64,000 nucleotides of DNA from positions 62,001 to 126,000 of the forward strand of contig DATJAY010000027.1 of NCBI GenBank assembly GCA_035515795.1. Reading direction: 5' to 3'. This document shows, piece by piece, positions 62,659 to 63,519 of this stretch. The DNA comes from Candidatus Acidiferrales bacterium (GTDB taxonomy: Bacteria > Bacteroidota > Ignavibacteria > Kryptoniales > JAKASW01). A model generated the notes under the pieces. The model did no database searches, had not been told where the DNA came from, and saw only the letters and a list, made by a program, of their open reading frames with translations. Each line of letters opens with the position of its first letter. Position 1 is the stretch's first letter. The position numbers and the translations under genes are program-made.

Positions 62659-62692
62659 CTCGTGGGCAGTAGAGGATTTGAACCTCTGACCC
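62659..62692. repeat. 34-bp direct repeat, left copy (tRNA-Val 3' end)
   Basis: The 34 bp from CTCGTGGGCAGT to TCTGACCC are identical to 62984-63017. They comprise the acceptor 3' strand and T arm of tRNA-Val and 5 bp beyond it. The two copies bracket the GIY-YIG gene, the arrangement expected when an element inserts at a tRNA 3' end and leaves a duplicated end. Confidence 0.9.
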
Positions 62693-62744
62693 TCCCGACT
62701 TGATGGATCAAGTCGGGATGCCCTGAACCAACTGAGTTTTTCCC
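62664..62744 (-). pseudogene. Degenerate tRNA-Val-like relic with palindromic anticodon arm
   Basis: Read on the minus strand, the D-arm text (CTCAGTTGGTTCAGGGC), the T arm (AGAGG-TTCAAAT-CCTCT) and the 3' acceptor strand of tRNA-Val are kept. The 5' acceptor strand is mutated (GGGAAAA) and no longer pairs. The 17-nt anticodon arm is replaced by a 26-nt hairpin at 62693-62718 with 12-bp arms TCCCGACTTGAT/ATCAAGTCGGGA. It cannot be a normal tRNA. Its 5' half also encodes the end of the GIY-YIG protein. Confidence 0.75.
62693..62718. repeat. 26-bp palindrome, TCCCG/CGGGA family (copy 1)
   Basis: Arms TCCCGACTTGAT and ATCAAGTCGGGA pair perfectly over 12 bp with a two-base centre. It occupies the anticodon-arm position of the tRNA relic and contains the stop codon of the GIY-YIG gene. 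Confidence 0.9.
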
Positions 62745-62983
62745 TTCAATATTAATCTCTCAATGAAGTCTCTACTCTTTTGAGACTTGATCTCCATCTC
62801 CCTGGCAACTGCTTCCTTATGCGAAGAAAACTCTTCATAATAAACAATCTCCCATGGAATGCCCGGTTTTGTCGAAGAAGTCTTGCCTCTATTGTGCTCG
62901 CACAATCTTCCGTCCAAATTGGAAGTACTCCCCACGTAATATTTCCCCCTCTTCCGACTTCTAAGAATGTAAGTGTAAAACAA
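62708..62983 (-). CDS. GIY-YIG nuclease-family protein
   Basis: A 91-aa UPF0213/YhbQ-like GIY-YIG protein. The motif appears as YTYILRSRKRGKYYVGSTSNLDGRL, with the catalytic Arg region (LDGRLCEHNRGKTSSTKPG) and WEIVYYEEFSSHKEAVAREMEIKSQKSRDFIERL; the core looks intact. It starts with TTG directly after the tRNA-Val 3' end. The last residues, from GKTQLVQG onward, are the translated D arm of the tRNA relic, and the TGA stop is inside the palindrome. It lies between 34-bp direct repeats. It could be a homing-type or repair nuclease. Confidence 0.85.
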   Translation of the reverse strand: MFYTYILRSRKRGKYYVGSTSNLDGRLCEHNRGKTSSTKPGIPWEIVYYEEFSSHKEAVAREMEIKSQKSRDFIERLILKGKTQLVQGIPT

Positions 62984-63017
62984 CTCGTGGGCAGTAGAGG
63001 ATTTGAACCTCTGACCC
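62984..63017. repeat. 34-bp direct repeat, right copy (inside functional tRNA-Val)
   Basis: Identical to 62659-62692. This copy includes the 3' end of the intact tRNA-Val gene; together the two copies enclose 291 bp that consist almost entirely of the GIY-YIG gene and the relic's 5' half. Confidence 0.9.
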
Positions 63018-63062
63018 CGTGCTTGTAAGGCACGTGCTCTGAACCAACTGAGCTAACTGCCC
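62988..63062 (-). tRNA. tRNA-Val (anticodon TAC)
   Basis: A complete cloverleaf on the minus strand: acceptor GGGCAGT/ACTGCCC with discriminator A, D arm GCTC...GAGC, anticodon stem CGTGC/GCACG with loop CTTACAA giving TAC, T arm AGAGG-TTCAAAT-CCTCT. No encoded CCA. It is the intact parent of the tRNA fragments on both sides. Confidence 0.95.
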
Positions 63063-63254
63063 AACCAACTTGCTCCAAATCCAAAGGGACTGTTCACCTG
63101 TTCAGTTCTAGACCCTCCCGCCAAGGGGGATGCTCTGAACCAACTGAGCTAACTGCCCAACCAACTTGCTCCAAATCCAAAGGGACTGTTCACCTGTTCA
63201 GCTCTAGACCCTCCCGCCAAGCGGGATGCTCTGAACCAACTGAGCTAACTGCCC
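63063..63254. repeat. Two 96-bp tandem units carrying the tRNA-Val 5' half
   Basis: Units 63063-63158 and 63159-63254 differ at two positions only (63106/63202 region T/C, and 63126/63222 G/C). Each ends with the 28 bases TGCTCTGAACCAACTGAGCT... that equal the 5' half of tRNA-Val on the minus strand (acceptor and D arm). Each carries a TCCCGCCAAG(G/C)GGGA hairpin where the anticodon arm would begin, plus a 53-bp non-tRNA spacer beginning AACCAACTTGCTCC. Confidence 0.9.
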
Positions 63255-63358: not shown

Positions 63359-63395
63359 ATTAAAGAACCCGCTTCGCACATCTAAAGAATTCATT

Positions 63396-63452
63396 GTGGA
63401 AGCTGGCATTCGCACTTTATCCCGCGTCTAGCGGGAATTGAATTATTCACAC
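63396..63452 (-). pseudogene. tRNA-Gly 5'-half relic interrupted by a palindrome
   Basis: On the plus strand GGAAGCTGGCATTC (63398-63411) repeats the tRNA-Gly anticodon and D-arm side, and TTGAATTATTCACAC (63438-63452) corresponds to its TGAATTACTCGCGC acceptor side with changes. Between them sits TCCCGC-GTCTA-GCGGGA (63420-63436), a 6-bp hairpin of the TCCCG/CGGGA type, replacing part of the D arm. It cannot be a functional tRNA. Confidence 0.6.
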
Positions 63453-63519
63453 AACTTTCAAAAGTACGAATTTGGCGCGGCTCAAACAAGCCCGAGCTTC
63501 GGTGGCTCAGCTTCGATGA

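Follow-up and report, generated by a model that had tools for sequence, protein, structure and literature searches.

Structure of the tRNA-Val locus

What is a nuclease gene doing between two copies of the same piece of a tRNA gene, and does such an arrangement call for an integrase? In the window (the whole 64,000-nucleotide stretch of DNA that was analysed), a perfect 34-bp direct repeat, unassigned to either strand, has copies at 62659–62692 and 62984–63017 (39 nt at 95%). With tRNA sequence inside it, a repeat of this length is no chance match. Copy 1 (62984–63017) lies within and just beyond the single intact tRNA-Val gene that ARAGORN reported at this locus (anticodon TAC; 62987–63062, minus strand), the host gene of the unit described below, and copy 2 (62659–62692) comprises the T arm, the acceptor, and 3 nt. 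The only protein gene between the copies encodes a small single-domain GIY-YIG nuclease of 91 aa (62708–62983, minus strand), and no tyrosine or serine recombinase was found there. The match of this ORF to Pfam PF01541 (E = 9.9e-18) exceeds the gathering cut-off, and residues Y5, Y16, G18, R26, and E62, invariant in our A1 alignment, are the conserved GIY-YIG catalytic residues (Tyr/Tyr/Arg/Glu columns). Its inferred start codon, TTG, lies 3 nt past the tRNA-Val 3' end.

The first-pass annotation, made from sequence alone, had placed the repeat, the tRNA-Val, and the GIY-YIG ORF correctly, and had described the repeat as a duplicated tRNA-Val 3' end. The latter description held only in part: the downstream copy belongs to a nearly whole, hairpin-disabled pseudo-tRNA-Val (about 62662–62736, minus strand), of which it forms the 3' part. 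This pseudogene consists of D arm, palindrome, T arm, and acceptor 3' strand, and its palindrome TCCCGACTTGATCCATCAAGTCGGGA stands exactly in place of the 17-nt anticodon arm (feature 62693–62718, no strand assigned; TCCCGACTTGATGGATCAAGTCGGGA, 26 nt with 12-bp arms). The final codons of the nuclease ORF reach into the D arm, so that the 3' end of the gene overlaps the pseudo-tRNA. The two repeat copies are identical (34/34) and so give no hint of whether the carried tRNA part is of foreign origin.

Upstream of the intact tRNA-Val are two tandem 96-bp units without a nuclease gene (63063–63254, minus strand), each composed of the tRNA-Val 5' half (28 nt, 100%), a hairpin TCCC(G/C)CTTGGCGGGA, and ~48 nt. 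This hairpin is shorter than the pseudo-tRNA-Val palindrome and of TCCC..GGGA type; the two units could be deletion derivatives. A partial copy of the neighbouring tRNA-Gly, with a hairpin (GGAAGCTGGCATTC repeat plus TCCCGCGTCTAGCGGGA) and no nuclease gene, was also observed at 63365–63475.

Recurrence across genomes and phyla

The genome from which the window comes (G000, 4.08 Mb) has 11 PF01541 matches, of which 8 are small, and six of these eight genes sit at five tRNA loci: Val, Gln, Pro, Met, and Ser, the last with two copies. All five loci carry tRNA-fragment copies or remnants, either hairpin-bearing or broken. By simple arithmetic, the chance of tRNA adjacency is ~3e-4 per gene (~46 tRNAs, a number assumed rather than counted, × 60 bp / ~8 million strand-bases), and the association in this genome is therefore far above chance.

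Flanks retrieved from related genomes contained tRNA-linked units at Val, Gln, Pro, Met, Ser, Leu, Arg, Ala, Asp, Cys, and other tRNA genes. A scan of named genomes recovered the same arrangement in Bacteroidota (Pedobacter, Flavobacterium, Belliella, Draconibacterium, and others), as well as in Ignavibacteriota, Zixibacteria, Cloacimonadota, Myxococcota, Thermodesulfobacteriota, Chloroflexota, Acidobacteriota, Elusimicrobiota, and candidate phyla, so that it has now been seen in about a dozen bacterial phyla and with many kinds of tRNA. Full flanks were available for 165 GIY loci, of which 95 had a tRNA on the same strand within 250 bp and none had one on the opposite strand only; the best tRNA-fragment matches at GIY loci were likewise on the same strand (236 versus 2 opposite). 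These small GIY-YIG proteins were nearly absent from the virus collections that we searched.

These counts are not natural frequencies, since loci were picked by protein score, from an alignment scan and from the highest-scoring PF01541 samples, and are thus biased. The collection scan used a closer five-protein alignment, a first alignment of six proteins having been too diverse. Some loci from named genomes duplicate loci of the same genus (for example L148/L074, L159/L058, and L218/L025), and the counts are not fully independent. Contigs often stop at a tRNA/GIY unit (L141, L162, L163, L171, L173, L179, L187, and L192); these repeats likely break assemblies and hide further copies.

Unit lengths were ~310–450 bp in the cases that we read, and tandem arrays of two to five identical or near-identical units were present. 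The working tRNA lay upstream of the nuclease at 78 ARAGORN-supported loci and downstream of it at 23, and a further 8 had one on both sides. In the upstream layout the hairpin-bearing tRNA copy follows the nuclease, whose start codon is often no more than about 10 nt from the tRNA 3' end. In the downstream layout a hairpin-bearing tRNA 5' half precedes the nuclease, which often ends a few nt before the tRNA 5' end. Many units duplicate the 5' half of the tRNA rather than its 3' end.

The palindrome that replaces a tRNA arm is usually TCCCG...CGGGA. It could be placed between tRNA-matching flanks in 58 loci, at the anticodon arm in 34, the T arm in 12, the D arm in 8, and elsewhere in 4. Most anticodon-arm palindromes coincide precisely with the borders of the 17-nt arm (-7/+10). 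Native tRNA arms in the first hairpin set were mostly filtered out, but the 58 still include at least two that look native, L074 and L197. When palindrome site was mapped on the enzyme tree, 13 changes were required, against a mean of 19.0 (minimum 14 of 500) in within-isotype shuffles. Palindrome position thus tracks nuclease clade beyond isotype-preserving shuffles, and shared host ancestry could contribute to this pattern.

Evolution of the nuclease and its sites

Isotype labels on the GIY tree required 39 changes, compared with 78.7 (minimum 71) when labels were shuffled freely and 73.3 (minimum 65) when they were shuffled within host groups. Clades grouped by tRNA isotype include some that mix phyla, and GIY proteins without tRNA association mostly form a clade of their own (46 rows). 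The alignment has 75 columns and few deep forks were resolved.

Site occupancy within the genus (13 congeners) was patchy. At the tRNA-Val site, the gene is intact in 2 of the 13 (G000 and G007), degenerate in G003, and represented by hairpin scars without a gene in G005 and G011; the rest have no GIY gene there. The tRNA-Gln site is occupied in 8 of the 13, and G003 keeps only a remnant of the tRNA-Gln-linked unit. The sister species G009 and G012 (prs tree) differ by one tRNA-Gln unit between conserved flanks, a difference that is probably a loss because the G009 copy has an in-frame TAG and the pair's neighbours are occupied. On the prs tree, differences in tRNA-Gln occupancy need three changes. 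Several presence/absence cases are best read as losses, and the tRNA-Gln pattern is compatible with an ancestrally occupied site. The nuclease gene is under purifying selection, with dN/dS of ~0.05–0.14 among tRNA-Gln-linked genes where dS was unsaturated.

Interpretation and alternative explanations

We consider it likely that this locus represents a single copy of a minimal selfish unit residing on tRNA genes, made up of a single-domain GIY-YIG nuclease and a hairpin-disabled tRNA copy, whose cleavage activity and mobility are inferred. It is likewise probable that the unit is the chromosomal counterpart of phage SegB, a free-standing homing type in which the tRNA copy keeps the target functional; cleavage and preferential inheritance are again inferences. 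What the data show is the anatomy and how it recurs, the matching of enzymes to isotypes, the existence of unoccupied sites and of tandem copies, and selection on the protein. The cutting of tRNA DNA, copying by repair, palindrome immunity, and expression from the tRNA transcript are inferences. The first-pass annotation had suggested a minimal nuclease-driven mobile unit targeting tRNA genes, which our results support, with mobility inferred from distribution and no cleavage or transfer observed. It had further proposed to look for the gene beside other tRNA genes and for empty sites: the former was found at many isotypes in the same genome, the genus, and other phyla, and the latter in close relatives, as unoccupied tRNA-Val and tRNA-Gln sites. 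Its analogy with elements that integrate at tRNA 3' ends needs refinement, toward a homing-endonuclease-like unit in which part of the target is duplicated, instead of an integrative element; the direct repeats are explicable without any integrase.

In the proposed mechanism, the nuclease would cut unoccupied alleles of its cognate tRNA gene, and repair off an occupied template would bring in the nuclease together with the tRNA segment, rebuilding a functional tRNA. The displaced tRNA copy would stay behind as a pseudo-tRNA, in which the palindrome would mark the leftover and destroy the nuclease site. The nuclease may be expressed via the tRNA transcript, a suggestion based on the short distance that often separates its start codon from the tRNA 3' end. 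Spread would occur by homing-like recombination and by horizontal transfer among lineages.

Several objections to a homing unit can be raised. Cleavage, transposition, and homing are all unobserved; isotype matching may in part reflect old co-inheritance of tRNA and GIY genes; and strong purifying selection would be compatible with a host function as well. Under a domesticated host function, the enzyme would be kept to amplify or maintain tRNA genes or to cut something else, and the pseudo-tRNA would be a by-product. The strength of purifying selection, the existence of tandem arrays, and the amplification of tRNAs under selection by phage SegB (PMC13096335) speak for this reading. We nevertheless find it unlikely: in close relatives the sites are patchily occupied, and remnants, in-frame stops, and scars without a GIY gene suggest that the gene is dispensable. 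Less plausible still is that the unit descends from an integrative element or island that used tRNA att sites and has lost its integrase. Such elements classically leave a repeated tRNA 3' end as their scar, but no integrase is needed here, units of ~310–450 bp recur with this gene plus a complete pseudo-tRNA, and many duplicate the 5' half; we rejected the integrase-scar reading on recurrence and unoccupied sites. An old, static tandem tRNA duplication that trapped a nuclease gene would by itself fit the direct repeat, and is all but excluded: it was rejected on the presence of the same anatomy at many isotypes and in many phyla, and on unoccupied orthologous sites.

A bolder alternative, which we consider unlikely, is that this GIY-YIG family acts on hairpins in a REP/RAYT-like manner, tRNA arms being one of several targets at which TCCCG...CGGGA palindromes are swapped. 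In favour of it, TCCCG..CGGGA was compared with a reversed control in the window's own genome and 40 relatives, and was in strong excess in most members of the genus. The excess was ~20–40x in the own genome but only ~1.4–2.7x in the sister family, where GIY genes are few, and across genomes it correlates with the number of GIY genes (rho 0.62 over 41 genomes; more weakly, rho 0.44, p 0.09, with one genome per family). In addition, members of a second small-GIY clade are sometimes found among GTCATTGCGAG..GAAGCAATC repeats, and in G038 (L302, L304, and L305) the tips of the GTCATTGCGAG repeat bear a TCCCG..CGGGA palindrome, as in replaced tRNA arms. However, phylogeny confounds this correlation, the 30 palindrome loci retrieved from the window's genome all lacked a nearby tRNA, and several genomes, such as G026 and G031, have many palindromes but few GIY genes. 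To our knowledge, no mechanism for hairpin transposition by GIY-YIG enzymes has been described. An undescribed minimal mobile class, in which a catalytic-domain-only GIY-YIG enzyme would act together with exchangeable hairpins, swapping TCCCG...CGGGA palindromes into tRNA arms and other repeats and thereby also scattering them through the genomes of many phyla, is a reading to which we give little credence. The second small-GIY clade itself (L003, L004, and about 18 relatives) has no tRNA association, and its association with GTCATTGCGAG..GAAGCAATC repeats, found within 400 bp of the GIY gene in 6 of 20 cases, is weak.

If the homing-unit reading is correct, these would be among the smallest selfish DNA units known, with one protein of 80–95 aa and part of a tRNA, and would be widespread in bacterial chromosomes. 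They would illustrate how essential tRNA genes can be colonised by an element that brings a replacement copy along, and would provide a non-phage system in which isotype-specific tRNA-gene nucleases can be tested. They might also account for hairpin-disabled tRNA pseudogenes, and they coincide with assembly breaks at tRNA loci. We found no earlier description of bacterial chromosomal units in the open-access literature searched, which yielded phage and mitochondrial analogues only; novelty is not thereby proven.

Relation to known systems

Integrative elements at tRNA 3' ends share with the window unit a direct repeat of the tRNA 3' end and a restored tRNA. The unit differs from them in having no integrase, a size of only ~300 bp, a hairpin-bearing pseudo-tRNA, and versions that duplicate the 5' half. 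UPF0213/YhbQ proteins are equal in size and catalytic domain, and our A1 profile also hits the solved structures 1ywl and 1zg2; UPF0213-like rows, in contrast, fall in the separate 46-row clade that lacks tRNA association, and the window protein lies outside it.

SegB of phages T4 and T6 is also a free-standing GIY-YIG enzyme encoded among same-strand tRNA genes, in the T4 tRNA cluster. It cleaves inside tRNA genes, is found with tRNAs of many isotypes, and promotes their amplification in tandem (PMC13096335); its inheritance is preferential (PMC2988022). The cleavage motif reported for it, RAWTSGAAC, resembles in our own reading the T-loop complement. The window GIY-YIG gene, like that of a free-standing homing endonuclease, lies outside any intron or intein and adjoins its presumed target, the intact tRNA, and occupied and unoccupied alleles of one site exist for both tRNA-Val and tRNA-Gln. 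Unlike these proteins, which are chromosomal, ~80–95 aa long, isotype-matched by clade, and only weakly similar in sequence, SegB is phage-borne, has 221 aa with more than the catalytic domain, and has no described hairpin-disabled tRNA copy. The 91-aa window protein lacks the C-terminal DNA-binding region of T4 SegB (221 aa) and continues only a handful of residues past the domain. We regard SegB, by analogy, as the closest system in mode of action; given the missing region and the weak similarity, we do not claim membership.

Mobile ORFs of fungal mitochondria, known from Allomyces atp6 and from Glomus atp6, atp9, cox2, and nad3 (PMC3630166), place an endonuclease ORF in the 3' part of a gene together with a replacement copy, leaving the native end downstream. 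Those ORFs encode LAGLIDADG or GIY-YIG enzymes and occupy mitochondrial protein genes, whereas the units described here occupy bacterial tRNA genes and have a palindrome-replaced arm in the leftover. Their characteristic trait, a carried copy of the host gene plus its leftover, is matched by the pseudo-tRNAs found beside the nuclease at many loci.
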